From IMG/VR virus record IMGVR_UViG_3300009151_000087, positions 1-56,017 of that record: DNA of 56,017 nucleotides. The stretch is one strand, 5' to 3'. A program made the translations under genes and the position numbers. This DNA is from a virus. Every line of letters begins with the position of its first letter. Position 1 is the stretch's first letter. Shown here piece by piece: positions 37,346 to 53,442 of this stretch. The notes below the pieces were generated by a model, which was given only the letters and a program-made list of their open reading frames with translations, made no database searches and was not told where the DNA came from.

Positions 37346-38533
37346 ATGTCACAATTATTAAACGAAAGATGGTCAGAGACCAAAGAAGCGCTGCTTGAAG
37401 GCCTAACTGGAAACCGTCGTGCATCTATGAACGTATGTTTAGAGAATACACGTCGCAGTTTGTCTGAAAGCGCAACCGCTGGCGCAACAAGTGCTGGTAA
37501 CGTAGCAACACTTAACCGTGTTATTCTACCAGTTATCCGTCGTGTTATGCCTACAGTTATCGCTAACGAAATCATCGGTGTTCAGCCAATGACAGGTCCA
37601 GTTGGACAGATCCATACATTGCGTGTACGTTATGCTGATGGTTCTAACGAAGTAACAGCAGGCGAAGAAGCACTAAGCCCATTCAAGATTGCTCAAGCAT
37701 ATTCTGGTAATGATAGCTCAAGCACTCCAAAGGCTGCTGCTACAAGTACTCTTGAAGGTACACCAGGTAAGCGTATGAGCATCCAGATCTTGAAGAGCCC
37801 AGTCGAAGCGAAAAGCCGTAAGCTATCCGCTCGTTGGACTTTTGAGGCTGCACAAGATGCACAAGCACAACAAGGTATTGATATCGAAGCTGAAATCATG
37901 GCTGCTCTAGCACAAGAAATCACAGCTGAAATCGACCAAGAAATCCTAGCAAGCCTACGTGCTCTAGGTACTGTAGAAGAAACATATGACCAATCTTTGG
38001 TCAGTGGTACTGCTACATTCGTGGGCGATGAGCACGCTGCTCTAGCTATCCAAATTAACCGTGTAAGCAACTTGATTGCTCAACGTACACGTCGTGGTTC
38101 TGGTAACTGGGCTGTTGTTTCTAACCAAGCATTGACAATTCTACAATCTGCTACTACCAGCGCATTTGCTCGTACAACAGAAGGTACATTTGAAGCACCT
38201 ACAAACACCAAGTTTGTTGGTACATTGAATGGCGCTATGCGTGTTTATGTTGACGCTTATCTACCAGATAGCGGTTCACAATCAATCCAAGACAACCAAG
38301 TTCTAATTGGATACAAAGGTTCTAGCGAAGCAGATGCTGCTGCGTTCTATTGCCCATATATTCCTTTGATGAGTTCTGGTGTTGTTCTAGACCCAGCTAC
38401 TTTTGAACCAGTAGTTGGCTTCTTGACCCGTTATGGTTATGTGGAACTTTCAAATACTGCTAGCAGTCTTGGAAATGCCGCAGATTATTTGGGTAAAGTT
38501 AGCATCAATTCTGCTAAAACAAGCTACAAATAA
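37346..38533 (+). CDS. gp23: Major capsid protein gp23
   Basis: The protein has 395 residues; T4 gp23 is 521, and the short form is usual in marine relatives. Recognisable parts are VATLNRVILPVIRRVMPTVI, NEIIGVQPMTGPVGQIHTLR, LSARWTFEAAQDAQAQQGID, EIDQEILASLRAL and FYCPYIPLMSSGVVLDPATF. A gp21-type site LSE at residues 39-41 suggests removal of the first 41 residues during maturation. Codon choice is visibly more regular (many CGT, GGT, AAC) than in the fibre genes, as expected for the most abundant protein. SD AAGGAG precedes the start, and a strong terminator follows within 25 nt of the stop. Confidence 0.97.
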   Translation: MSQLLNERWSETKEALLEGLTGNRRASMNVCLENTRRSLSESATAGATSAGNVATLNRVILPVIRRVMPTVIANEIIGVQPMTGPVGQIHTLRVRYADGSNEVTAGEEALSPFKIAQAYSGNDSSSTPKAAATSTLEGTPGKRMSIQILKSPVEAKSRKLSARWTFEAAQDAQAQQGIDIEAEIMAALAQEITAEIDQEILASLRALGTVEETYDQSLVSGTATFVGDEHAALAIQINRVSNLIAQRTRRGSGNWAVVSNQALTILQSATTSAFARTTEGTFEAPTNTKFVGTLNGAMRVYVDAYLPDSGSQSIQDNQVLIGYKGSSEADAAAFYCPYIPLMSSGVVLDPATFEPVVGFLTRYGYVELSNTASSLGNAADYLGKVSINSAKTSYK

Positions 38534-40014: not shown

Positions 40015-43000
40015 ATGGCAACAAGAGTATCGGGCACAAGATCGTTATCACCACAAAGTGGATCGGTATCCAGTATCGCCGGCGCGCAGAATGGTAGCAT
40101 TACAGAATCTAACAACGGAACAGTAACCGTATCTGGATCAGTTACACAGTTAGCAGCCAGTGGTACCAATGTATCTGGGCTACTGAATGTAACTAACACA
40201 ACGCCAACAACAGATCCTACTAATGGTGCTGTTCACGTTTCCGGTGGTCTAGGAGTTGAGGGCGATGTAAGAGTAGGCGGGTTTATCTACGGTCGTATTG
40301 CCCAAGCCAATTCTGCCACAACTTCTACAAATATTACAGTAGTTAACACAAATGAAAATGCCAAATTCTTTCCTTTGTTTACTGACCCGGCTGGATTGAT
40401 ACAATATGGATCTATCCTCTATGCCGATAATAGAAATGTAAATAATAGCGACGGAGGACTAACATACAATCCTGGAACAGGAATGTTGACATCTGAAAAG
40501 ATGGCAGTTGAATCCGGTGCTCCTTCTATTAGTCCTGTTACTGGTGCTTTCACTGTTACCGGCGGTGTTGGTATACTAGGCGATATTCATATCCAAGGTG
40601 ATATTGTACCAGGCGATGATTTATTGAGTAATCTAGGATCACTAGGAGCCCGATGGTCTGATGCTTATCTTGACAATGTTTATGCCAAGACATTGACCTC
40701 TCTTGGAACAGATAATATATCATTAACACCGGCAGGTGGTACCACTGACATATTTGGTGACATTAGAGTACGAGGTGTTAATCCAATTGGAACATCTCCT
40801 GTAGTAACCAATGTACTTTATGTAACCATGGACGGTAACGATACCAATGATGGTCGTGCACAAGATGCCAGTCGTGCTTGCCGTACTATCACTGGAGCAG
40901 TCAATAGCCCTTACTACCAATCTGGCACACAGATTAAAGTTTCTGCGGGATTTTATCTTGAAGATAATCCTATACAATTAAAACCTTATACCAGTATAGT
41001 TGGTTCCGATCTTAGAACTACCAGCGTTGAACCAATTAATAAAACACAAGATTTATTCCATTTAAACTCAGGGTGTTATCTAGCAGGCATGCAATTTTTA
41101 AATGGCCGTAGCGGCCTACTACCGGGCGATTATGCCGCAGGCTATAATAGAGGTGCGTTTGCCACAGCATTTCCTCCTTTGACAGGTGATGCGCGTATTG
41201 ACTTATTCCATTCGCCATACATACAAAACTGTACTAATCAAAGCGGTCCATGGTTAAAAGATGGTACTATGTTTGTTCCAGATCAAACTGTACAAGTACC
41301 TGCTGCAGTTGGTACAGGTACATGGTTGTCCAATACTACTACTATAATAGTAAATGTTGGTACTGGTACTATTGTACAAGGTATGTCAATCAATGCCGGT
41401 AAACAAAATCCAGGATTCTTTGATGCTAGAACACTATTGCTGGCCAGTAAACCTTTCCTACAGGAACAAGTTGTAGCCTATATAAATGAACAAATCGCTG
41501 TATATGGTGCTGTTTCTAGCAGCATATGGTATAATTTTGATTACAGTAGAGAATTCTGTTTTAGAGATGTCGGTATCCTAGTAGAAAATATTTCATACGA
41601 TGCTTCTTTTGGTGGAAATGAAAAAGCAGTTGAAAGCGGCCTGGCTTACTACAAGGGAGTGGTAAGTCTTATTGCTGGACAAGAGGCACAAACTTCTGCT
41701 GGTATTGAATATTTAAAATCTCTGTGTTTAAATGTGATAGACAATGTACCTTGTACAGATCTATTAACCGGAACAGGAAAATATCAACAGGTTATTAATA
41801 CTGTGCTAACAGGTGGTAATGCTGCTGCTGATTCAATTGTACAACTGTTTGATATAATCACAACTATTATTAATAATGGCCCAGATGCTGCTCCTGCTGT
41901 TTACAATAGTACTGGCCCGGATGCTGCTTTTGTCAGTGCTGAAATATTGCTACAGGCCAACAGAAAGTTTATTCAAGAAAATACTTTAAATTATATCAAT
42001 TGGAATTTGGTATATCCGCAACCCGAAGGATATCTTCCATATAATAAAATAAAATGCCGTAGAGATACAGGCATTATTATTGATTCGTTAGCATTTGATT
42101 TATTATATCCTAGTGCCGATGATAGCCAGATAACTTTTTCGGGTTTACAATATTGGAGCCAAGACAGCTATATAGGAACTATCGCAGATGAATTAACTAC
42201 AACCACTAATGCCATAAAATACCTTAAAGATTTAAGCGTTAAAATTATTCAAAATATCACACCAGCTGACGATTTAGTGAATAGATATAGCGGAAGTACT
42301 CAAGATATTGCCCTTGAATCTGCTACAGTAACCGAGGCAGGGGTATTAAGTAAAAACTTTGATATCATTATTTCAATACTGAAAGGTAACAATAAAGGCT
42401 GGACTGATAAAATTGTACCTAACGGACCGGTCAGTGATTTATTATCAGTCAAGAATGCTTACAATATATTGTTGGCAAATTTAGATAATAATTATATACA
42501 GGATGAAATAATTGCCTATATTGAAGCAACTAAAACACCCGGTTTTACGTACAACGATACTACCTGCAGAAGAGATATAGGTTATATTGTTCGATCCATA
42601 GCATTTGATTTGTTACACGGTGGCAATAGACAATCTATTCAAAGTGGATTAGCATATTATGGATTTAACGGAGCCAATACTGTAATTCCTCAAGAAAGAA
42701 CGCAAACGGTTGGAGCATTTACATTCTTGAGTCAAACTATCGCAGCCATGTTGATTAATCCTACATTGCTGATCACACCAGAACAAACTAAAGTAAAACA
42801 AACAGTTGGGCTACCGTTGGCTACTTCTGCTGAACAGGCATCGGTCTTTAGCAAAATAAATGTATTAAACGATATTATCTTAAATGGGCCGGGTTCACAT
42901 GTGGCAAGTCTTATTGGCTCGACTGTAACAACCAGCACTAGTGTTGTAAATGCTTTTAATATTATAGAAACTAATAAAGCATTTTTAGTAGCGGAAGTGT

Positions 43001-45429
43001 TGGCATACCTTGATAAAACATACAATGCTGGAGCATTTAGCTACGATCAAGATAAGTGCTTCAGAGATACTGGACTACTGGTAGATGCTGTCAGCCAAGA
43101 TATTCTACTAGGCGGAAATAGTAAAAGTGTCCAAGCAGGATTATCTTATTGGAGTCAAGGTTATAATTCCGTTGCAGAACAAGCTACAACTACAACTGCC
43201 GCTATAAATTATATATCATCAATTGCGAGTCAAATAATTGCTAATACTACAGTTACAAGTGTAACAGGCACAATCGCGACGCAAGTAATCAATCCATTCT
43301 TCCAGTATGGTGGTGACTACATGCCTACACAGGCTGTAACCCGTAACTTTGGTATTATAGCGAATATTGTGACCAATGGACCTAAAGCAGCACCGGTATA
43401 TTATGCCGGTGGAGGACTCACCCCGCTGACAGGAATAAATGGTGCAGATGTAAAGCTGCCGCCAAAAGTTACTTCTGTATCTTTAATTGATACCAATAGA
43501 TATCTAATTGGTCTAAGCGAACCAACTGTGGGATTTGGTACAAATGCTACTCTCTATTTTGGAGATGTTTATGTACAGCCTTTACAAGACAATACAGTTG
43601 AAGCATTGAGTATTCAATATTCAGGAACATCGACCACTTGGGATAGTAGAAAATTAGATCCAATTGGCGGTATGGGAGGTAGCTTAGTAGACGGAGCAGT
43701 AATTAGCGATATATCACCAATCCAGTCTTTTGTTTATGATGCCTATACACAGGTAACACAAGGTGGACGTGGAATTTATGTTACCAATAATGGATATGCC
43801 CAGTTAGTTTCTGTGTTTACTATTTTCTGCAGTGTAGGTGTACAGACCGATAATGGTGGTATTGCTAGTATTACAAACTCCAATAATAACTTTGGTGACT
43901 TATGTCTTGTTTCTAAAGGATATGGTACAAGAGCATTCTCCGGTACAGTATATAATCCTATATATACCGCTTATCCAAATACTCCAGGACCCGATGGTTT
44001 CAATCAATATTATCCAAATGGATATTGGCCAAATAGAGGAACTGTAGAATTATTTGTACCAGATACAGCAGATAGACCACATATTAGTTTGATTATGGAA
44101 GTTGTACCTCCTTTGAAAGTTTACGATCCGGCAACTTCAACATATGTTGATCAACTTAATGCTCAAGGATTTCCTGGATTCTTAACAGCCCAGCCTAGTA
44201 CTAATTTATTAACAACCGGTACTATTGTATTGACCGGGGTTGATAACAGCGATATTGCCATAGGCAATACTGTATATATAAGAGATCAGCAAGGTAGAGA
44301 ATATGATAACAACGGTATAAGATATGCTGCTACAGGAACTGTTGTAGCAGATCTGGGTTATAATACCATAACATTATCAAAAGCACTAACCAGCGGTGGT
44401 GGCGAAGTTAATAACCCTATATATTTTACTTTATATTTCTGCGGAAATGCTTATTACACAGTATTATCTAGTAGTTTAGCAACTAACCCTAAGCCACTCG
44501 ATGTTAACATTTTATCGTCGGAAGGATTGACTTATCGAGATCCGTTTACGGGAATTGTGGTACCCGTAAATGATCAAATAGAAAGTCACGCTGCTGCGAT
44601 TGGTTACTTGAGTTCTTTAGTAGATAATGTTATTGCCAACACCGCTGTGGGGTCTCTGTATCAAACAACATCAACGTCTACTCAGATAATTCTGCCATTG
44701 ATTACCGGCGGAGCTCAAGCTCAAACATTTATAGATGCTAGATTTAGTAATATTATTAATATAATTAATGCTGCTGATATCACGGCCGCTAAGGCAGTAG
44801 TTCCACCGCGTGCCTTAAAGAAAAAAGGAACAATACCTGCCGGAGCAGGAAGTGCTGTTACTTTGATTAACGCTAATTTAGATTTCTTTGCCGCAGAGGT
44901 TAATGCGTTTGTTAAAACTACCTATCCTGGTAATAATTATAACAAAGATAAATGCGATAGAGATGTTAGATTAATATTACAAAGACTGATATACGATATA
45001 GAATCTGGCGGAACTTATAACTCTGTTATGAGTGGACTGAGTTACTGGTCAAGAGCAGGCACTCATCATATAGTAGAATTAGGCGAGGCAGTGACTAATA
45101 CAGCATTATTTCCGGATGGTGCTACAGTAAACTTCTATCAGCGTAGTTATATCAGTGCCAGTGGATATCTATTTGAATATGTTGGCGCAGGTACCAATTA
45201 CGGAGCATTACCTCAGGTGGGCAGAGCTGACCCTGTACAATCAAAAGAAACTGTTCAATTGAATTATGGTGCGGTATTCTTTACTTCAACCGATCAGAAC
45301 GGTGATTTTAGAATTGGTAAAGGGTTGGTTATTAGTCAAGCAACCGGCGTACTGAGCGGAAGAACATTTACTAAATCGTTATTTGCTAACATGACACCAT
45401 TTATATTAGCAATTGAAGCTGGAAGATAA
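40015..45429 (+). CDS. Large tail fibre with beta-helix and inserted helical repeats
   Basis: The protein has 1804 residues. The N-terminal ~230 residues hold cassettes of the fibre family (NGAVHVSGGLGVEGDVRVGG, TGAFTVTGGVGILGDIHIQG). Residues ~265-370 look like the start of a pectate-lyase-type right-handed beta-helix (LYVTMDGNDTNDGRAQDASR, KPYTSIVGSDLRTTSVEP). Four modules of ~167 residues follow, each with (C)-x-R-D-x-G near 513, 680, 850 and 1014 and GGN..S..SGL.Y(Y/W). The beta-helix seems to resume near 1235-1310 (GGRGIYVTNNGYAQLVSVFT). A fifth module at ~1645 precedes the conserved end (DQNGDFRIGKGLVISQATGV, FANMTPFILAIEAGR). Host-receptor binding is inferred. Confidence 0.85.
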   Translation: MATRVSGTRSLSPQSGSVSSIAGAQNGSITESNNGTVTVSGSVTQLAASGTNVSGLLNVTNTTPTTDPTNGAVHVSGGLGVEGDVRVGGFIYGRIAQANSATTSTNITVVNTNENAKFFPLFTDPAGLIQYGSILYADNRNVNNSDGGLTYNPGTGMLTSEKMAVESGAPSISPVTGAFTVTGGVGILGDIHIQGDIVPGDDLLSNLGSLGARWSDAYLDNVYAKTLTSLGTDNISLTPAGGTTDIFGDIRVRGVNPIGTSPVVTNVLYVTMDGNDTNDGRAQDASRACRTITGAVNSPYYQSGTQIKVSAGFYLEDNPIQLKPYTSIVGSDLRTTSVEPINKTQDLFHLNSGCYLAGMQFLNGRSGLLPGDYAAGYNRGAFATAFPPLTGDARIDLFHSPYIQNCTNQSGPWLKDGTMFVPDQTVQVPAAVGTGTWLSNTTTIIVNVGTGTIVQGMSINAGKQNPGFFDARTLLLASKPFLQEQVVAYINEQIAVYGAVSSSIWYNFDYSREFCFRDVGILVENISYDASFGGNEKAVESGLAYYKGVVSLIAGQEAQTSAGIEYLKSLCLNVIDNVPCTDLLTGTGKYQQVINTVLTGGNAAADSIVQLFDIITTIINNGPDAAPAVYNSTGPDAAFVSAEILLQANRKFIQENTLNYINWNLVYPQPEGYLPYNKIKCRRDTGIIIDSLAFDLLYPSADDSQITFSGLQYWSQDSYIGTIADELTTTTNAIKYLKDLSVKIIQNITPADDLVNRYSGSTQDIALESATVTEAGVLSKNFDIIISILKGNNKGWTDKIVPNGPVSDLLSVKNAYNILLANLDNNYIQDEIIAYIEATKTPGFTYNDTTCRRDIGYIVRSIAFDLLHGGNRQSIQSGLAYYGFNGANTVIPQERTQTVGAFTFLSQTIAAMLINPTLLITPEQTKVKQTVGLPLATSAEQASVFSKINVLNDIILNGPGSHVASLIGSTVTTSTSVVNAFNIIETNKAFLVAEVLAYLDKTYNAGAFSYDQDKCFRDTGLLVDAVSQDILLGGNSKSVQAGLSYWSQGYNSVAEQATTTTAAINYISSIASQIIANTTVTSVTGTIATQVINPFFQYGGDYMPTQAVTRNFGIIANIVTNGPKAAPVYYAGGGLTPLTGINGADVKLPPKVTSVSLIDTNRYLIGLSEPTVGFGTNATLYFGDVYVQPLQDNTVEALSIQYSGTSTTWDSRKLDPIGGMGGSLVDGAVISDISPIQSFVYDAYTQVTQGGRGIYVTNNGYAQLVSVFTIFCSVGVQTDNGGIASITNSNNNFGDLCLVSKGYGTRAFSGTVYNPIYTAYPNTPGPDGFNQYYPNGYWPNRGTVELFVPDTADRPHISLIMEVVPPLKVYDPATSTYVDQLNAQGFPGFLTAQPSTNLLTTGTIVLTGVDNSDIAIGNTVYIRDQQGREYDNNGIRYAATGTVVADLGYNTITLSKALTSGGGEVNNPIYFTLYFCGNAYYTVLSSSLATNPKPLDVNILSSEGLTYRDPFTGIVVPVNDQIESHAAAIGYLSSLVDNVIANTAVGSLYQTTSTSTQIILPLITGGAQAQTFIDARFSNIINIINAADITAAKAVVPPRALKKKGTIPAGAGSAVTLINANLDFFAAEVNAFVKTTYPGNNYNKDKCDRDVRLILQRLIYDIESGGTYNSVMSGLSYWSRAGTHHIVELGEAVTNTALFPDGATVNFYQRSYISASGYLFEYVGAGTNYGALPQVGRADPVQSKETVQLNYGAVFFTSTDQNGDFRIGKGLVISQATGVLSGRTFTKSLFANMTPFILAIEAGR

Positions 45430-45847: not shown

Positions 45848-47848
45848 ATGCCATCATTAATTAGCGGGTCAGTACTACGTTCAGGAGGTAGCAATCAATA
45901 CATAACATTGGCTACTGCACAACCGCAGTTGCCTCCTACTCCTACAACTTCAACTGGATATACAGTTGTTACCGATTCTTCATTAATAACCACCTATCGA
46001 TCTAGTTTAGGAAATATTGAATTCAATCAGGGCGAACTCTATAGCAATCTACCTTATCAAAATATACGTATAGTTGCCACAGGTACCAGCAAAGTTATTG
46101 TAACAGGCGGTATAGCAAATACAGGAACCGATACCGGTGCCTTGATAGTCCAGGGCGGCATTGGTATAAGTGATGGCCTATGGGCAGGAAAAGACATACA
46201 TGTCAACGGATTAACTATTGGGCAAGGATATCAAGGTCTTAACAACATAGTAGTTCGCGGTGATGCTAGAGCACAGAACGATGCTTATCCCGGACAAGCA
46301 ATAATCGCCATAGGATATGATACTTTAACCGGACTAGATACATCGTTAAAATCAATAGCCATCGGACGATACGCATTAAGTTCAGGAACTGGAATTTTAA
46401 ACAGTATTGCCATTGGTGATAGTGCTTTAAAGAAGTTGGGTACAGTGCCCGGCGGTCTAGCAGAATCTAACATTGCTATAGGTAATTATTCCGGCGACGA
46501 ATTAATTGATGGAAGATTAAATCTTTTCCTTGGGCATGATATTGCTCCAAACTTGACCACAGGTTCCTATAATTTCTTTGTGGGACACGAAGTTGGTATA
46601 AACATGACACACGGTAACGGAAATATTGCCATTGGCGGCGATAATCTACGTGACGGCGTTGATAATCAGATCAACATTGGCTCAATGTTATACTATGATG
46701 GCGGCGGCTATCTACAATTAAATGCAGATACCGGTCTAGGTCTTGGTACCACAGCGAGTCCTCTTACACAATTAAACACCGTTAGTAATATCAATACTTC
46801 CACTGTTCCGGTAGTGGTAACAAGTATTAGTCATGGACTTACCAGCGGAGAAGATGTAATAATAACAGGTATTCAAGGAACTACACAAATTAATAATAAT
46901 GTGTATTATGTAAAAAATCTTACTACCAATACATTCTCGTTGTACTATGATAGACTATTGACTACACCTGTCAATGGAACAACATTTACCAACTATATTT
47001 CTAGTGGTACAGTTTATGCCGTTCAACCAAATGGTGCTCTTATCGTACTAGGCGGCGCTTATATTACTGACAATCTTATTGTTGATAACGACACTGTTTT
47101 AAACCGTGCGTTGACTGTTGCTGGTACAGGAACAGTGACACTGACTCCTACATCGAGCGGCACAGTTATTATAAATCCCAACACTGTTGGATCTATAGAT
47201 TCTATGACCATTGGTTATAATAAACGCAACGATGGCTATTTTAGAAATTTATATGTTAATACATTAACAGTAGATCATTTCTTTATAAATTCCATTGATG
47301 GTGCTATTGATAAAACAAATAATATCATGGGCGGCTATCGAGGTAGCATACCAATTCAATCGGCACCAGATACCACAGCATTCATACCAATAGGCAGTGC
47401 TGGACAGGTATTGATTGCTACCGGTACTACAGCAACCTGGCAATCAATTGGTGGTCTATCGGCAGGTACCGCTACCAACTCTGAAAATATTTTTATAAAT
47501 CCTGTAGTACCCAACAGTCCGTATTATCTAGTATTAGGTGAAACTATTAGCGATTATGGTCCTTTAGATGCAGATTCACTGTTGACCTATCAGACTAATG
47601 ATAAGACACTAACTGCTCCAAATTTAACTATAACCAATACTGCTACAATTTTAGGTAGTATATATGGTGTTGTTACAGGTAATCCTGACGAAAATTATCT
47701 ACTATATAGTCCAAAAACTACCGTAGGCTCTAGTCCACATACATATCCTAGAATTGGAGATTATTGGATAGATTCAGATAACAGAGCAGGATATCAATAT
47801 ATTAATGATAGTGGTAGCCGATTTTGGTTACAGATTTTTATATTATAA
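45848..47848 (+). CDS. Tail fibre with YadA-like head repeats
   Basis: The protein has 666 residues. Residues ~95-125 carry a fibre cassette (GALIVQGGIGISDGLWAGKD). Residues ~150-285 hold AIG-type repeats (IIAIGYDTL, SIAIGRYAL, SIAIGDSAL, NIAIGNYSG, NIAIGGDNL, INIGSM), as in the left-handed beta-roll of trimeric autotransporter adhesins and some phage fibres. Residues ~315-385 contain a SHGLTSGEDVIITGIQGTTQ module like the E1 FCCH-like unit seen in phage fibres. The end has a PRIGDYWIDSDNRAGYQYIND strand region, the type that closes fibre tips. It is most likely a trimeric fibre. It shares the cassette with its neighbours. Confidence 0.75.
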   Translation: MPSLISGSVLRSGGSNQYITLATAQPQLPPTPTTSTGYTVVTDSSLITTYRSSLGNIEFNQGELYSNLPYQNIRIVATGTSKVIVTGGIANTGTDTGALIVQGGIGISDGLWAGKDIHVNGLTIGQGYQGLNNIVVRGDARAQNDAYPGQAIIAIGYDTLTGLDTSLKSIAIGRYALSSGTGILNSIAIGDSALKKLGTVPGGLAESNIAIGNYSGDELIDGRLNLFLGHDIAPNLTTGSYNFFVGHEVGINMTHGNGNIAIGGDNLRDGVDNQINIGSMLYYDGGGYLQLNADTGLGLGTTASPLTQLNTVSNINTSTVPVVVTSISHGLTSGEDVIITGIQGTTQINNNVYYVKNLTTNTFSLYYDRLLTTPVNGTTFTNYISSGTVYAVQPNGALIVLGGAYITDNLIVDNDTVLNRALTVAGTGTVTLTPTSSGTVIINPNTVGSIDSMTIGYNKRNDGYFRNLYVNTLTVDHFFINSIDGAIDKTNNIMGGYRGSIPIQSAPDTTAFIPIGSAGQVLIATGTTATWQSIGGLSAGTATNSENIFINPVVPNSPYYLVLGETISDYGPLDADSLLTYQTNDKTLTAPNLTITNTATILGSIYGVVTGNPDENYLLYSPKTTVGSSPHTYPRIGDYWIDSDNRAGYQYINDSGSRFWLQIFIL

Positions 47849-47859
47849 AGTTTTAAACT

Positions 47860-49032
47860 ATGACAAATTTGAATTTTCCTACCCCGGCGTACAATTTACA
47901 ACTCTACAGTATAGGAAGTAGAACCTACAGATATAGCACAGGAACTAATTCTTGGGCGATATTCACCAATGACTCTCAAATAGTAACAAATTTTACCTCC
48001 ACCTTTACAACAGTTAATGGTACTGCTACTTCTACATCAACTGTTACTGGATCATTAACAGTTGTTGGCGGTGTTGGTATTGGCGGCGCCGTCAATATTG
48101 GAAGTACTAGTACTATAGGCGGCGCACAGATCATAACCACTAGCACACTTGATAGTTTTGCTAGAAAAATATTACTCTACGCAGGAACAGATACTGCTAT
48201 ATTTACTACCGTTACTAGCACTAGTACAAGTTATACTATTTCAAATACCAGCACACTTCAAACTGTAACCGATAGAGGCAACACCACAACCAATAGTATA
48301 CGAATATTAAACACTGCCAATTCAACTAGTACTGTCACAGGTGCGTTAACTGTAGCAGGCGGAGTAGGAATTAGTAAGGATCTATATGTTGGTGGCATGG
48401 TTAACATTGCAAATACCGGCACCATGGTAGGAGCAGAAATTATTACCACTGCTACTTACAGACCTCTTTTCGCAGCCGGTACTGATATCAAAATCCAAAA
48501 TAATACACTGACCAATTCTTTGGTATTTTCTAATACATCTACCTTACAATCAGTTACTGATAGAGGTACAACCACCACTAACATAGTGAATTTTACTAAT
48601 ACTACCAATTCTACCAGCACTACCACAGGCGCAGTGATCATTGCTGGCGGCTTAGGAGTAGGAGGACGCATCAATTCTGAGAGCCTACAGATAGCAGATG
48701 CTATCCTGGATTCTACACAGATTTCAATAAATACAACGAACACTACAGAAATTGATAGGTATCCAGCAGATCAATATAGGACTGCCAAATACCTAATTCA
48801 AGTTGATGAAGGAATGGGAGCAGGAGCAGAATTTGAAGCTGTTGAAATTATGTTAATAGTAAACAATAATCAACAGGTTTTTGCTACAGAATACGGAGCA
48901 GTAAGGTCGGCGGGCGACTTAGGAGATTTTGCTGCAGATGTACAGAATGATAATTTTGTTAGATTGTATTACACAGCGTTTAATCCAACTAGTAAACTAA
49001 TAAAAGTATTAAGGACAGCAATGACAGTATAG
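47860..49032 (+). CDS. Tail fibre of the TGAL-VAGGVGIGG cassette family
   Basis: The protein has 390 residues. Three cassettes are visible (VTGSLTVVGGVGIGGAVNIG, VTGALTVAGGVGISKDLYVG, TTGAVIIAGGLGVGGRINSE), joined by Thr/Ser-rich linkers with LQ(T/S)VTDRG(N/T)TTTN. The C-terminal ~95 residues (YRTAKYLIQV, FEAVEIMLIV, LGDFAADV, VLRTAMTV) form a domain shared with the end of the 1136-residue fibre downstream. The N-terminus FPTPAYNLQLYSIGSRTYRY probably docks to another fibre part. Host-binding role inferred. Confidence 0.75.
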   Translation: MTNLNFPTPAYNLQLYSIGSRTYRYSTGTNSWAIFTNDSQIVTNFTSTFTTVNGTATSTSTVTGSLTVVGGVGIGGAVNIGSTSTIGGAQIITTSTLDSFARKILLYAGTDTAIFTTVTSTSTSYTISNTSTLQTVTDRGNTTTNSIRILNTANSTSTVTGALTVAGGVGISKDLYVGGMVNIANTGTMVGAEIITTATYRPLFAAGTDIKIQNNTLTNSLVFSNTSTLQSVTDRGTTTTNIVNFTNTTNSTSTTTGAVIIAGGLGVGGRINSESLQIADAILDSTQISINTTNTTEIDRYPADQYRTAKYLIQVDEGMGAGAEFEAVEIMLIVNNNQQVFATEYGAVRSAGDLGDFAADVQNDNFVRLYYTAFNPTSKLIKVLRTAMTV

Positions 49033-49061
49033 AGTAGGCAGTACAAAAGGAACACACTAAA

Positions 49062-52000
49062 ATGGCACTAACATCATTTACCCAAGATTTTATTTTAAAA
49101 TCTGGGTTGGCAGTTGAGGGAACTATCGCAGTTACCAGTTCAACGGGACAAACCGGAACGGTACAGATCATGGGCGGTGCTGCAATCGCTCAAAATTTAA
49201 TAGTAGGCTCTACTGCTAGTGTTTACGGTCCAACACAATTACAAAATACATTAAATGTAGCAGGTCAAAGCACATTAGCTCAATTAACCGCTACAATCAC
49301 AACAGTCACACAATTGACTGTAATGAACGACCAAGTCGTATATGGTAATCTTAATGTAACAGGAACCACTCATTTATACAGCACACTAGCGGTTGACGGT
49401 AATACACAATTTCGCGGAGCATTAAACACTTTCAGCGGTGCCTTAATTGTTACTGGTACAAATACTTTCACAGTAGGATCAGGAGCATCTGATTTTGGTG
49501 GCACAGTTGACATTGGCGGTGTTGCTCACCTAAACAATACTGCACTAGCAGATACAAGTAAAAATGGTTCTCTAGTAGTTGCCGGCGGCGTATATATTGA
49601 CAAAAATCTCGTAGTTGCCAGTACCTCTAGCAATACTGGAACTAGTAGTCAAAATGCTTTGTTTGTTGCTGGCGGATTATGGGTTGACAAGAATTTAACC
49701 GTATCGGGACCAGCTGTATTCAGCAACACAGTAGTATTCAACGGTACTGCTACTTATGTTTACAGTACCAATACATACTACACAGATAATATCATAGAAA
49801 TACATACCCCTCCGGGTGGCGTAGGTTCTCAATGGCCCGGCGGCGACGGCAAAGATGTTGGATTTAGATTCCATCATTTTGCCAATAATACAGATACAAA
49901 TTCTGCGCTGGTATTGGCCTATGATACGAAATATTTAGAATGGTACGGATCCGGCGCAGAATCAAACACAGGTACATTCGCAGGAGCTACCTACGGCGCA
50001 TTTAAAACCGGATACATACAACTTACCGGTGTAACCACAGCAACCAGTACAACCACAGGTGCCCTACAGGTAGCAGGTGGTATCTCGGCTAGTAATATAT
50101 ATGCCGATGGAGAAGTTAGAAGTAATACATTAAAAGCCGCTAATTTAAGTGGCAACAACTTTGGTATCGTATACTCTGATCCAACTGGATTATTGGTAAA
50201 TGCTAGCAATGTAACATATAGCACAACTCTACAATATCTTACAGGTAGAATTGAATACGCTAATACTGCTACCAATGTAGCAGGCGGTGCGGCAGGTAGT
50301 TTATTGGTACAAACCAGCACAGGTGTTACTTATTCGCTGCCTATTGGCAACGAAGGTGCTGTACTACTTGTAAAAAATAGTTTACCTTATTGGCAAGATC
50401 AATATGCGCCGGACTACGCCAATACTGCAACCAATATCAAGTCAGGTCTGGCCAATCAAATTCCTTATCAAACTGCTCCTGGTGTCACTGGATTCAGTAA
50501 CAGTTTGGTGTTTAATGGAACTACATTTACTACTACCAACATAGTATTAACAGGCAGTACCAATGCTACTAATACTTACTCTGGAACTTTACAAGTAGCA
50601 GGTGGCGCAGCAATTGGTCAAGACTTATATGTAGGCGGCAGCATCTATGTAGGCGGCAACGTATTCTTAGATGGTGTTGGACTAGATACCGTACAAGGAA
50701 CCACCGCTACATTTGTCAATATCAATGTTACGGGAACCAATTACGCATTGACAGTTACTAATGGTATCTATGTTGGTACCACAGTAACAACTGACATGAT
50801 GATTGTACGCAGTACTGTTGAAAGTACAAGTACCACAGCAAGTAACGCATTGTATGTCAAAGGCGGACTAGGTGTAGATGGTACTGCTTTCTTTGGTGGC
50901 AGTATCAAAGTTGGAAACAACATTATAGGTACCAATCAAGTCAGTGGTATCACAGGTGTGTTCTTTGGCGATCAATACGGATTTGACGCCCTATATGCCG
51001 GAACTAATGACTATGTTCCGTTACCGTCGACTGTATTACAACTTACTGCCAATATCAACGATTACGCACAAAGTAATTTCCAAAATACCAACAACGGTGC
51101 CCGGGCCAGTACTGATTGGGTATTGACCAGCGCCGATGGCGCAAACTTTGCCAACTTTATTGACATGGGTATAACCAGTGGCAACTGGGATGGTACACAG
51201 TCCGGTAGTATTGGCACCGCAGTTGGTCCAAATGATGGCTATCTATATGTTCAAGGAACTACCAGTACTGTAGGCCAAGGTAACTTGTCAATTGGTGCAA
51301 GCTCAACTGGTAGTGTTATTCGATTCTTTGCCGGCGGAGTAGGTTCTCAATCTATAGTTGCAACTATTAATGCTCCAAATACTCAATCAACTTCTACCTC
51401 ATCGGGCGCTTTTGTATTAAAAGGCGGCGCGGGCATTAGTCAGAATTTATATGTTGGCGGAGACCTTTCTACTAATAAATTAAGAATTAGCAGTACTGAA
51501 AATAGTACCAGCACTTTATCGGGAGCACTGACAGTAGCAGGTGGTGTTGGTATCGCTGGTGCGTTATATGCTGGTGATATATATTCCAATGGCGCGCTAG
51601 TATCCGGCGGAGTCGTATCAAACTTTACTGCTACAACAGCCACAGTTACTACCAGTCTAACTGTTAACGGTAAGATAATTACCACACTGGTTACCAGCAC
51701 CACTTCGTTAGATTTATCATCAGATGTTGGTTATCCTGTACATATTAACGCTGCTGGGCATACCACAGAATTCTTAGCTGCTGGACAAATTAGACCATCT
51801 GGTGCTTTAATAGGTAGCAGTTACGATTCTAATGTAGTCGATGTCAGTAATGTTGGACCATTATTACTTAAAGGTACAGCATACGGTGCTAATATCATCA
51901 CATCGGATGATCACGCAACAGACAAATATACTTGGGGCTTTGGAAACGATGGTAAATTAACCGCTCCTGGAAATATTGAAGCACCGACGATAACAGTAAC

Positions 52001-52472
52001 CAGTAGTACCAACGCAACAAATACCACATCTGGCTCATTACAGGTCATTGGTGGTGTTGGAATTGGACTAGATCTAGTAGTAGGTAGTGCGGTACATATT
52101 GGAACTACAGCAACCGATGTTGTGATTCCTGCGGTATACAGTGGTAATAGTTTGTTGGCCAATTATACCAGCAATGTTATCACTACAAATAGTTCTCAGA
52201 ATCTTGATACATTCTTGACTGCTAATTATAGAACAGCCAAATATCTTGTTCAGATAGTCGATGGTGCTAAGATACATGTTCAAGAAATGCTATTATTCCA
52301 CAACGGAACCAATGTATACATGAACATATACGCCATATCAACCACTCAAGGCGAGATGGGAGAGTTTGATGCTGGCATCGTTGGTGGAAATACCATGACA
52401 CTATCATTTATTCCAAATTACACTCCAACTGCCATGGTTATTAAAGTAGCAAGGACTACACTCACGGCGTAA
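49062..52472 (+). CDS. Long tail fibre of the cassette family
   Basis: The protein has 1136 residues, built almost wholly from beta cassettes: GSLVVAGGVYIDKNLVVAS, QNALFVAGGLWVDKNLTVSG, TTGALQVAGGISASNIYADG, SGTLQVAGGAAIGQDLYVGG, SNALYVKGGLGVDGTAFFGG, LSGALTVAGGVGIAGALYAG and others. A more ordered stretch at ~650-770 (FFGDQYGFDALYAGTNDYV, NGARASTDWVLTSADGANFA) may be a receptor-binding or knob domain. The C-terminus (YRTAKYLVQI, HVQEMLLFHN, GEMGEFDAGIVGG, VIKVARTTLTA) matches the end of the 390-residue fibre. It is followed by a strong terminator, ending this transcription unit. Confidence 0.78.
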   Translation: MALTSFTQDFILKSGLAVEGTIAVTSSTGQTGTVQIMGGAAIAQNLIVGSTASVYGPTQLQNTLNVAGQSTLAQLTATITTVTQLTVMNDQVVYGNLNVTGTTHLYSTLAVDGNTQFRGALNTFSGALIVTGTNTFTVGSGASDFGGTVDIGGVAHLNNTALADTSKNGSLVVAGGVYIDKNLVVASTSSNTGTSSQNALFVAGGLWVDKNLTVSGPAVFSNTVVFNGTATYVYSTNTYYTDNIIEIHTPPGGVGSQWPGGDGKDVGFRFHHFANNTDTNSALVLAYDTKYLEWYGSGAESNTGTFAGATYGAFKTGYIQLTGVTTATSTTTGALQVAGGISASNIYADGEVRSNTLKAANLSGNNFGIVYSDPTGLLVNASNVTYSTTLQYLTGRIEYANTATNVAGGAAGSLLVQTSTGVTYSLPIGNEGAVLLVKNSLPYWQDQYAPDYANTATNIKSGLANQIPYQTAPGVTGFSNSLVFNGTTFTTTNIVLTGSTNATNTYSGTLQVAGGAAIGQDLYVGGSIYVGGNVFLDGVGLDTVQGTTATFVNINVTGTNYALTVTNGIYVGTTVTTDMMIVRSTVESTSTTASNALYVKGGLGVDGTAFFGGSIKVGNNIIGTNQVSGITGVFFGDQYGFDALYAGTNDYVPLPSTVLQLTANINDYAQSNFQNTNNGARASTDWVLTSADGANFANFIDMGITSGNWDGTQSGSIGTAVGPNDGYLYVQGTTSTVGQGNLSIGASSTGSVIRFFAGGVGSQSIVATINAPNTQSTSTSSGAFVLKGGAGISQNLYVGGDLSTNKLRISSTENSTSTLSGALTVAGGVGIAGALYAGDIYSNGALVSGGVVSNFTATTATVTTSLTVNGKIITTLVTSTTSLDLSSDVGYPVHINAAGHTTEFLAAGQIRPSGALIGSSYDSNVVDVSNVGPLLLKGTAYGANIITSDDHATDKYTWGFGNDGKLTAPGNIEAPTITVTSSTNATNTTSGSLQVIGGVGIGLDLVVGSAVHIGTTATDVVIPAVYSGNSLLANYTSNVITTNSSQNLDTFLTANYRTAKYLVQIVDGAKIHVQEMLLFHNGTNVYMNIYAISTTQGEMGEFDAGIVGGNTMTLSFIPNYTPTAMVIKVARTTLTA

Positions 52473-52492
52473 TACACATACGCTTCTTACAC

Positions 52493-52525
52493 AAAATAGG
52501 GCTTGCGAGCCCTATTTTATTTTTT
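52493..52525 (+). terminator. Strong intrinsic terminator after the long fibre
   Basis: AAAATAGGGCT-TGCG-AGCCCTATTTT is an 11-bp stem with a T-rich tail (52519-52525), 20 nt after the stop codon. The stem can work in both directions. Confidence 0.88.
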
Positions 52526-52526
52526 A

Positions 52527-52534
52527 CATAAATA
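52527..52534 (+). promoter_or_regulatory. T4-type late promoter right after the terminator
   Basis: CATAAATACATTG starts directly after the T tract of the terminator and lies about 36 nt before the ATG at 52570. Terminator and promoter together isolate the next fibre genes. Confidence 0.65.
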
Positions 52535-52569
52535 CATTGTCTTTAAGTGGAAAGGGAAGCTGAACGACA

Positions 52570-53442
52570 ATGGTTAATAATAGCGCTTTCAAGGTCAAAA
52601 ACGGCCTTGTAGTATCATCTACTGCGACAATTCTGTCGACTGCATCATCAATATCAACAGATACTGGTGCGGTAATTGTTGCGGGCGGCGTCGGCATCGG
52701 CGGCGATCTATATGTTGGTGGTAAAATTGTTGCGCAAGAATTAGACATTCAGTATACCACGGTCACTACCACTATCGTTGAAACAGACGATATAATCACC
52801 ACTTTTAATACCACAAGTTCTACTTCAACTACTACCGGAGCATTGGTTGTTGCCGGTGGTGTTGGCATCGGCGGAGATCTTTATGTTGGCGGACAAATTG
52901 TTGCCAACCAATTAACTATTCAATATACCACAGTAACTACTACCATAGTTGAAACTGATGATATAATCACTACTTTTAATACTACTACTTCAACTTCAAC
53001 CGATAGTGGTGCCTTGATAATAGCAGGCGGTGCCGGAATTGGCAGAGATGTCAACATAGGTGGCACGATTACTGCTGCCGGTACAGGAACTATCGGCGGA
53101 ATAATTCTTGGACAAGGAGGAATATTCCCACCAGTATTAGATGAGTTTGGAACTACGATACTTTATGATGGAGTTACCACTAGTACTGTGATATTTGCTG
53201 ATGGTACAGTACAAGGGGCTCGTGCTCCAGTTCAGTGGACCAACTCAAAATTTATTTCAGTTGCTACCTACTATAATATAGATCCAGCAATAGTATTCAA
53301 TCCAATTATCGCAGGAGGTTATGTTTATCCTGGTGATACATATTTTGATGATGGAAGTTTTGGTACAGAACCAAACCATTTATTTGTCATGGCAGACATT
53401 GGCGGCGGACAAATGCAGTTTGTTGATATAACACAGAAATAA
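52570..53442 (+). CDS. Short tail fibre with 60-residue repeats
   Basis: The protein has 290 residues. Three cassettes follow each other (TGAVIVAGGVGIGGDLYVGG, TGALVVAGGVGIGGDLYVGG, SGALIIAGGAGIGRDVNIGG). Between them the segment IQYTTVTTTIVETDDIITTF occurs twice, giving a ~60-residue (180-bp) repeat whose two DNA copies differ mostly at third codon positions. The C-terminus (VQWTNSKFISVATYYNIDPA, GGYVYPGDTYFDDGSFG, HLFVMADIGGGQMQFVD) is a distinct tip domain. It has its own late promoter and is followed after 3 nt by the Ig-like repeat gene. Confidence 0.75.
   Translation: MVNNSAFKVKNGLVVSSTATILSTASSISTDTGAVIVAGGVGIGGDLYVGGKIVAQELDIQYTTVTTTIVETDDIITTFNTTSSTSTTTGALVVAGGVGIGGDLYVGGQIVANQLTIQYTTVTTTIVETDDIITTFNTTTSTSTDSGALIIAGGAGIGRDVNIGGTITAAGTGTIGGIILGQGGIFPPVLDEFGTTILYDGVTTSTVIFADGTVQGARAPVQWTNSKFISVATYYNIDPAIVFNPIIAGGYVYPGDTYFDDGSFGTEPNHLFVMADIGGGQMQFVDITQK

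Follow-up and report, generated by a model that had tools for sequence, protein, structure and literature searches.

The stretch of DNA considered here, called the window throughout, is the full 56,017 nucleotides of IMG/VR virus record IMGVR_UViG_3300009151_000087. On its forward strand lies a giant tail-fibre gene, which begins 1.5 kb downstream of a gp23-like major capsid gene (37346-38533) and is divided as follows, with the source of each assignment in brackets.

40015-45429, forward strand: giant tail-fibre gene, 1804 aa (open reading frame list; PHROG tail fibre families, best phrog_5342, E 3.2e-68)
40762-41394, forward strand: N-terminal flank of the array, aa 250-460, predicted to be beta-strand-rich and beta-helix-like (AlphaFold model 2, Foldseek, kept in relatives)
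41398-41916, forward strand: module 1, aa 462-634, Cys 515 at codon 41557-41559 (alignment; all-helical in model 2)
41908-42426, forward strand: module 2, aa 632-804, Cys 681 at codon 42055-42057, GGN motif altered (alignment)
42412-42924, forward strand: module 3, aa 800-970, Cys 851 at codon 42565-42567 (alignment)
42904-43434, forward strand: module 4, aa 964-1140, Cys 1015 at codon 43057-43059 (best PF00502 stretch; own structure model; Foldseek, VIA)
43432-44454, forward strand: C-terminal flank of the array, aa 1140-1480 (kept in relatives; PHROG 5342 stretch 1238-1309)
44512-44814, forward strand: half-module resembling the C-terminal half of a module, aa 1500-1600 (blastp E 3.8e-8 to module 1)
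44800-45114, forward strand: half-module resembling the N-terminal half, aa 1596-1700, Cys 1647 at codon 44953-44955 (blastp E 9.5e-15 to module 4)
45112-45426, forward strand: conserved C-terminal fibre domain, aa 1700-1804 (PHROG 17885 and 3442; tblastn matches in 79 loci)

Downstream of the fibre gene, the proteins of 47860-53442, structural or head decoration by PHROG, carry a repeated motif like TSTVTGALTVAGGVGI, and similar motifs are present at 45848-47848 and in the N-terminus of the fibre itself. The structural protein of 45848-47848 also matches the Pfam family E1_FCCH, a ubiquitin-activating enzyme domain, just at the cut-off over residues 325-392; this match likely marks a small beta domain.

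It is clear that the repeats noticed in the original prediction are real, as C-x-R-D recurs at aa 515, 681, 851, 1015 and 1647, with spacings of 166, 170 and 164 residues among the first four, and the spacing between modules in relatives has a median of 163 aa (IQR 160-165, n=298). Modules 1-4 are mutually homologous (blastp E 1e-12 to 1e-26, with 28-38% identity where they align), and the columns invariant across them include C54, R56, D57, G59, D68, G81, L82 and Y84 in module 1 numbering. Two details of that prediction stand only in part. The motif GGN..S..SGL.Y, attributed to every module, has a modified form in module 2 (SADDSQITFSGLQYW) and module 5 (GGTYNSVMSGLSYW), and the fifth module placed near the C-terminus does hold the copy with Cys 1647 but is made of two half-modules in swapped order, the C-terminal half preceding the N-terminal half.

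The modules had been proposed to be helical, and they are so predicted both in the AlphaFold model of module 4 (model meebf16753f5d, built from 104 sequences; pLDDT 90.8, pTM 0.87) and, for module 1, in a second model spanning the N-terminal flank. Beta-helix coils, set beforehand as the outcome that would speak against modules as insertions, were looked for in the models and did not occur. All 50 Foldseek matches listed for module 4 are phycobiliproteins or phycobilisome parts at probability 1.00, one of them entered as 'Bacterial fluorescent protein', with E-values that are weak (best 7.6e-3 for module 4, none at or below 1e-3 in either model). VIA-align of module 4 with phycoerythrin and phycocyanin beta chains gave Z up to 17.1 with 137 residues aligned at an rmsd of 2.2 A, in a re-examination of Foldseek's own list that does not cover folds outside it. 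Model residues 1-151 correspond to chain residues 30-177, the alignments starting at chain residues 26-33, and the N-terminal X-Y helical hairpin, which serves alpha-beta pairing, has no counterpart in the module 4 model by VIA-align; the modules are therefore not classed as a light-harvesting phycobiliprotein subunit.

Sequence profiles lead to the same family. The whole fibre protein matches Pfam PF00502 (Phycobilisome) at 25.4 bits (cut-off 22.2, E 1.6e-5), with no single stretch above the cut-off alone; module 4 by itself reaches 17.8-18 bits, below the cut-off (18 in a six-frame search). The same PF00502 search on 14 control genomes gave a match in Synechococcus elongatus only, and among 104 diverse modules 21 match PF00502 and at most two match any other family. 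When profiles of modules were compared with all PDB sequences, phycobiliproteins occupied 29 of 31 rows for the four window modules (smURFP counted; best E 0.0094), 14 of 15 for the 104 modules (best E 0.0016) and 59 of the 60 rows listed for 40 modules of isolated cyanophages (best E 2.5e-5), where the other row was a 'bacterial fluorescent protein'. A phmmer search of the PDB with the whole fibre protein returned no match. In the PDB profile alignments the Cys of C-x-R-D falls on Cys-84 of phycocyanin alpha. Taken together, these results place the modules almost certainly within the phycobiliprotein superfamily, the bilin-binding globins.

In phycobiliproteins Cys-84 carries the bilin, Arg-86 meets its propionates and Asp-87 its pyrrole nitrogens. 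Metal or disulfide chemistry, originally suggested for the conserved Cys-x-Arg-Asp, gives way to another identity for the motif, that of the phycobiliprotein bilin-attachment motif in a matching fold. Counted after identical rows had been collapsed, the modules of IMG/VR loci keep the Cys in 469/489, the Arg in 474/489 and the Asp in 484/489, and those not matching the scan seeds keep the Cys in 358/377 and the Asp in 373/377. Modules on contigs of metagenome-assembled genomes (MAGs) keep both in 41/41, and those of isolated cyanophages the Cys in 45/46, the Arg in 23/46 and the Asp in 46/46. In phages bearing a bilin reductase (FDBR) the counts are 78/90 for Cys and 86/90 for Asp, and in those lacking it 95/101 and 100/101, so that retention of Cys and Asp ranges from 87 to 100% across the module sets. 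It is very unlikely that these are disulfide or metal domains in which paired cysteines, from one module or from different chains of a trimeric fibre, hold the fibre fixed. A second Cys, as a rule 88-102 residues C-terminal to the motif Cys, does occur in 20 of the 21 isolated-cyanophage modules covering that region, where a disulfide may therefore form, but it is common in isolated cyanophages only; in the window lineage the motif Cys stands alone, being present in 101 of 104 modules against at most 8 of 104 for Cys in any other column, and both fold and motif match phycobiliproteins.

Other positions are just as constant. An Asp at Cys+14 is present in 487/489 of the collapsed IMG/VR modules and 540/541 of the modules in loci L001-L078, and a Tyr, as invariant as C-x-R-D, is kept in 536/543 modules of the latter loci; we know of no bilin role or phycobiliprotein counterpart for either. 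Fold stability by itself may account for the conserved residues, and this equal invariance lends itself to a reading, tentative but with a serious claim, in which the modules are apo structural units: bilin-free spacer or receptor-binding segments, derived from phycobiliproteins or from a common ancestor with them, that set fibre length, with the motif kept for folding or packing. It is harder to explain on those terms that about 96% of modules, at 25-40% identity, retain a lone Cys, which would seem to call for a role, and that Cys and Asp are the very two residues in contact with the bilin.

Relatives conserve both segments that border the array, aa 250-460 and aa 1140-1480, and 62 loci hold the two together (among them the duplicate records L565/L047, L564/L008, L561/L027 and L562/L040, and one locus whose inter-flank stretch is not open). 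In 11 of the 62 there is no motif between the flanks, the gap being 16-130 nt, and the fibre runs straight through; the others hold 1 to 17 motifs, most commonly 4, 6 or 8. The proposal that the modules are an insertion into the fibre is thereby borne out, since the fibre of relatives continues without modules between the same two flanks, and a count of 0 to 17 between fixed flanks makes the array a variable-copy insertion. Such variation is like that of spacer repeats and favours apo structural modules. A two-module repeat unit was considered, copy number being mostly even, but was rejected, as identity at lag 2 exceeded that at lag 1 in just 14 of 33 arrays.

The flanks themselves had been taken for a pectate-lyase-like beta-helix, and for this the support from prediction is only moderate: strands are predicted and a phage fibre appears among the Foldseek matches. 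Model 2 (AlphaFold, aa 250-640) has a mean pLDDT of 71.6, with strands within model residues 17-108 in blocks of about 60-92 and long stretches below 50. Phycobiliproteins lead its Foldseek matches, among which is also the tail fibre of Agrobacterium phage 7-7-1 (PDB 9rkv), at 22-25% identity over 104-121 columns of a model comprising flank plus module 1. We infer that the matching part of the model is the N-terminal flank. To our knowledge the 7-7-1 tail fibre has no module array.

The words 'unusual in phage fibres', originally attached to the chemistry of the motif, do not hold either, as the modules are common in T4-like phages of aquatic habitats. Carriers include the isolated marine cyanophages S-PM2 and P-HM2 as well as jumbo T4-like phages of aquatic metagenomes, to whose lineage the window belongs, and in IMG/VR 524 of 600 candidate stretches were confirmed as relatives. 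A tblastn search with modules 3-4 matched 104 of 50,697 phage records, all of them cyanophages or one single-cell marine virus, and a profile search of 22 chosen named records found modules in 11 of 17 cyanophages and in none of five T4-like phages of other hosts, the Pelagibacter phage HTVC008M being one of the five. No module was detected in P-SSM2, S-SSM7 or P-SSP7 even at high search sensitivity. An origin in cyanophages only, as the 104 named records might suggest, was ruled out for the window lineage by its capsid affinity and by the absence of psbA from all 50 of the longest module-bearing IMG/VR records. Among named phages those with the nearest capsid are jumbo phages infecting Sinorhizobium, Vibrio and enterobacteria, with about 70% identity to Phosso, Vibrio 2.275 and CBB, and these three together with 121Q carry modules in 0/4. 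The window capsid is 88% identical to that of G057 (328 kb, 19 module matches) and 85% to that of G079 (215 kb, 9 matches), two long relatives that both possess a bilin reductase. The host of the window phage may accordingly not be a cyanobacterium, given a capsid nearest to non-cyanobacterial jumbo phages and the counts of 0/50 for psbA and for cpeT, the latter considered below.

Six module loci from the genome_contigs collection belong to MAGs that bear the names Proteobacteria, Rhodobacteraceae and Planctomycetaceae; they are probably phage contigs in bins. In S-PM2 (165928-177267), 16 tRNA genes are annotated within the open fibre gene of 11.3 kb, in the orientation of that gene and some of them over module matches; these annotations probably have misplaced coordinates.

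Genes of bilin synthesis accompany the modules in some phages. A bilin reductase was found in 2 of 50 module-bearing IMG/VR records, both jumbo (L140:2741-4750 and L141:2631-4602), where the gene order is Hsp20, ClpS, heme oxygenase, bilin reductase; the first three are named from their translations and the reductase alone was tested by profile. Where module-bearing genomes have the reductase it lies far from the fibre gene, and heme oxygenase adjoins it in the two examined. Records were drawn from 50 of 78 module loci (the longest), 44 of 160 reductase loci and 43 of 238 capsid loci, and all records of at least 100 kb were kept, except two query records in the reductase-seeded set. Modules are present in 13 of the 44 reductase-bearing records, 9/9 at 100 kb or more and 4/35 below, the 9/9 being biased towards relatives because the scans were seeded with reductases of two module-bearing phages; the capsid-sampled set is fairer. 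With four named phages added, that set at 100 kb or more (n=28) comprises 5 records with both, 7 with modules only, 2 with reductase only (G108 and G122) and 14 with neither (p=0.10); at 200 kb or more the corresponding numbers are 5, 2, 1 and 13 (p=0.0055, or p=0.035 with CBB-like near-clones collapsed). Pooling gives modules in 13/15 vs 7/21 (p=0.002), a value that mixes the reductase-seeded and capsid-sampled sets and includes among its 15 two records, G018 and G029, first found via modules. The association between modules and bilin reductase is thus moderate and not strict. As a strict marker of modules the reductase was rejected, 7 of 12 module-bearing records of at least 100 kb in the capsid-sampled set lacking it and G108 and G122 presenting the reverse.

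Among named cyanophages no overall association was seen, the reductase being present in 4/11 with modules and 2/6 without; P-SSM2 and S-SSM7 possess the reductase and lack modules. Module-bearing isolates from Prochlorococcus have it in 4/4 and those from Synechococcus in 0/7 (p 0.003, in a small and related sample). CpeT shows a sharper pattern in the 17 named cyanophages, occurring in 10/11 with modules and 0/6 without (Fisher p 0.0006, kinship ignored). In S-PM2 cpeT (NC_006820 163952-164479) lies about 1.5 kb upstream of the giant module-bearing fibre gene, near gp5, and in Syn33 (NC_015285 13885-14343) it is in the region of tail and baseplate genes, also near gp5. CpeT was found in 0/50 module-bearing IMG/VR records, which rules it out as a general partner of the modules, and CpeS in 0/29 of those tested. 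T-type lyases serve Cys-153 and are not known to serve Cys-84. That the modules imitate phycobilisome subunits in order to bind linkers or bilin lyases, or that they trap the bilins of the host, would suit the make-up of the tblastn-matched records and the tail-region cpeT of S-PM2 and Syn33, but is scarcely probable for a domain that sits in virion fibre proteins, in a lineage whose longest records lack both psbA and CpeT and whose capsid is near that of non-cyanobacterial jumbo phages.

The fibre, then, contains a domain of the phycobiliprotein family in a tandem array of variable copy number, and most copies keep the Cys and Asp that in phycobiliproteins attach and hold a bilin. That the modules are holo-biliproteins is the reading we prefer, at about even odds. 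For bilin loading speak the fold, the family profiles, the position of the motif at Cys-84, the conservation of Cys and Asp, the bilin genes of some carriers, and the CXRD and lyase-free bilin binding of BBAGs. It is weakened by the many module phages without a bilin reductase and by the frequent loss of the Arg in cyanophages, both of which favour apo structural modules; by a Cys no better kept in phages with the reductase than in the others; by the reductase without modules in P-SSM2, S-SSM7, G108 and G122; and by the counts for CpeT and CpeS. If bilin loading does take place, biliverdin, phycoerythrobilin or phycocyanobilin would become bound to the fibre modules during infection, made with heme oxygenase and bilin reductase of the phage if it has them and by the host if not. 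Attachment would probably be by a thioether at the conserved Cys, in jumbo phages without a lyase, as reported for BBAGs, and in marine cyanophages perhaps with the assistance of phage CpeT. Modules so loaded would make the fibre longer and stiffer, and might render it responsive to light or redox state.

A further step, which we consider a long shot, is that the modules, as photoactive biliproteins, face outwards from the virion and that light alters the bilin and hence the fibre, so that adsorption would depend on light. In S-PM2, which has modules, adsorption depends on light, and P-SSM2, which has none, adsorbs in darkness; both fit a light switch. According to a 2020 report (PMC7112961), P-HM2 is unable to adsorb in the dark and P-SSP7 infects in the dark, and the presence of modules in P-HM2 and their absence from P-SSP7 are likewise consistent with a light switch. 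Such a switch, if true, would explain both the bilin synthesis genes of phages and the cyanophages that are unable to adsorb in the dark, and light-dependent cyanophage adsorption gains a testable molecular candidate. That viruses wear pigment on their fibres becomes a testable possibility; phage pebS, pcyX, pcyA, hemO and cpeT gain a concrete phage-encoded candidate target; and many annotations as 'tail fibre', 'short tail fibre', 'baseplate wedge' and 'virion structural' can be relabelled.

What seems new is the setting of a phycobiliprotein-family domain in phage fibres, of which no report was found in the open-licence literature; virions would be a new setting for a well-known pigment-protein fold. 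In print, the hemO and FDBR genes of phages have been called enigmatic in purpose. Phage bilin cassettes consist of HemO with PcyX or PcyA in the relevant passages of one paper (PMC11480375), and those passages propose BBAGs or phytochromes as possible pigment partners and name no phage-encoded one. Some module-bearing aquatic phages likewise carry a bilin reductase, the two jumbo records having the order Hsp20-ClpS-HemO-FDBR.

With the light-harvesting phycobiliproteins (phycoerythrin, phycocyanin and allophycocyanin) the modules share the order of globin-like helices along chain residues 30-177, the placing of C-x-R-D at the Cys-82/84 bilin site and a GG turn after that helix. They differ in lacking the X-Y hairpin, in standing in tandem inside a phage fibre, in having a bilin that is putative, and in their invariant Asp at Cys+14, which is absent from the matched phycocyanins. 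BBAGs, in the pertinent passages of Rockwell 2023 (PMC10151467), are phycobiliprotein paralogues that bind bilins without lyases, and BBAG-1/3 have CXRD, which includes the bilin-attachment Cys. Like the modules, they are as described there paralogues outside light harvesting, with CXRD in BBAG-1/3; they are found with HO and FDBR genes, and in some module-bearing genomes an FDBR gene occurs far from the fibre gene. The likeness is drawn from published description and not from sequence, and BBAGs are stand-alone bacterial proteins, whereas the modules are repeats of a virion.
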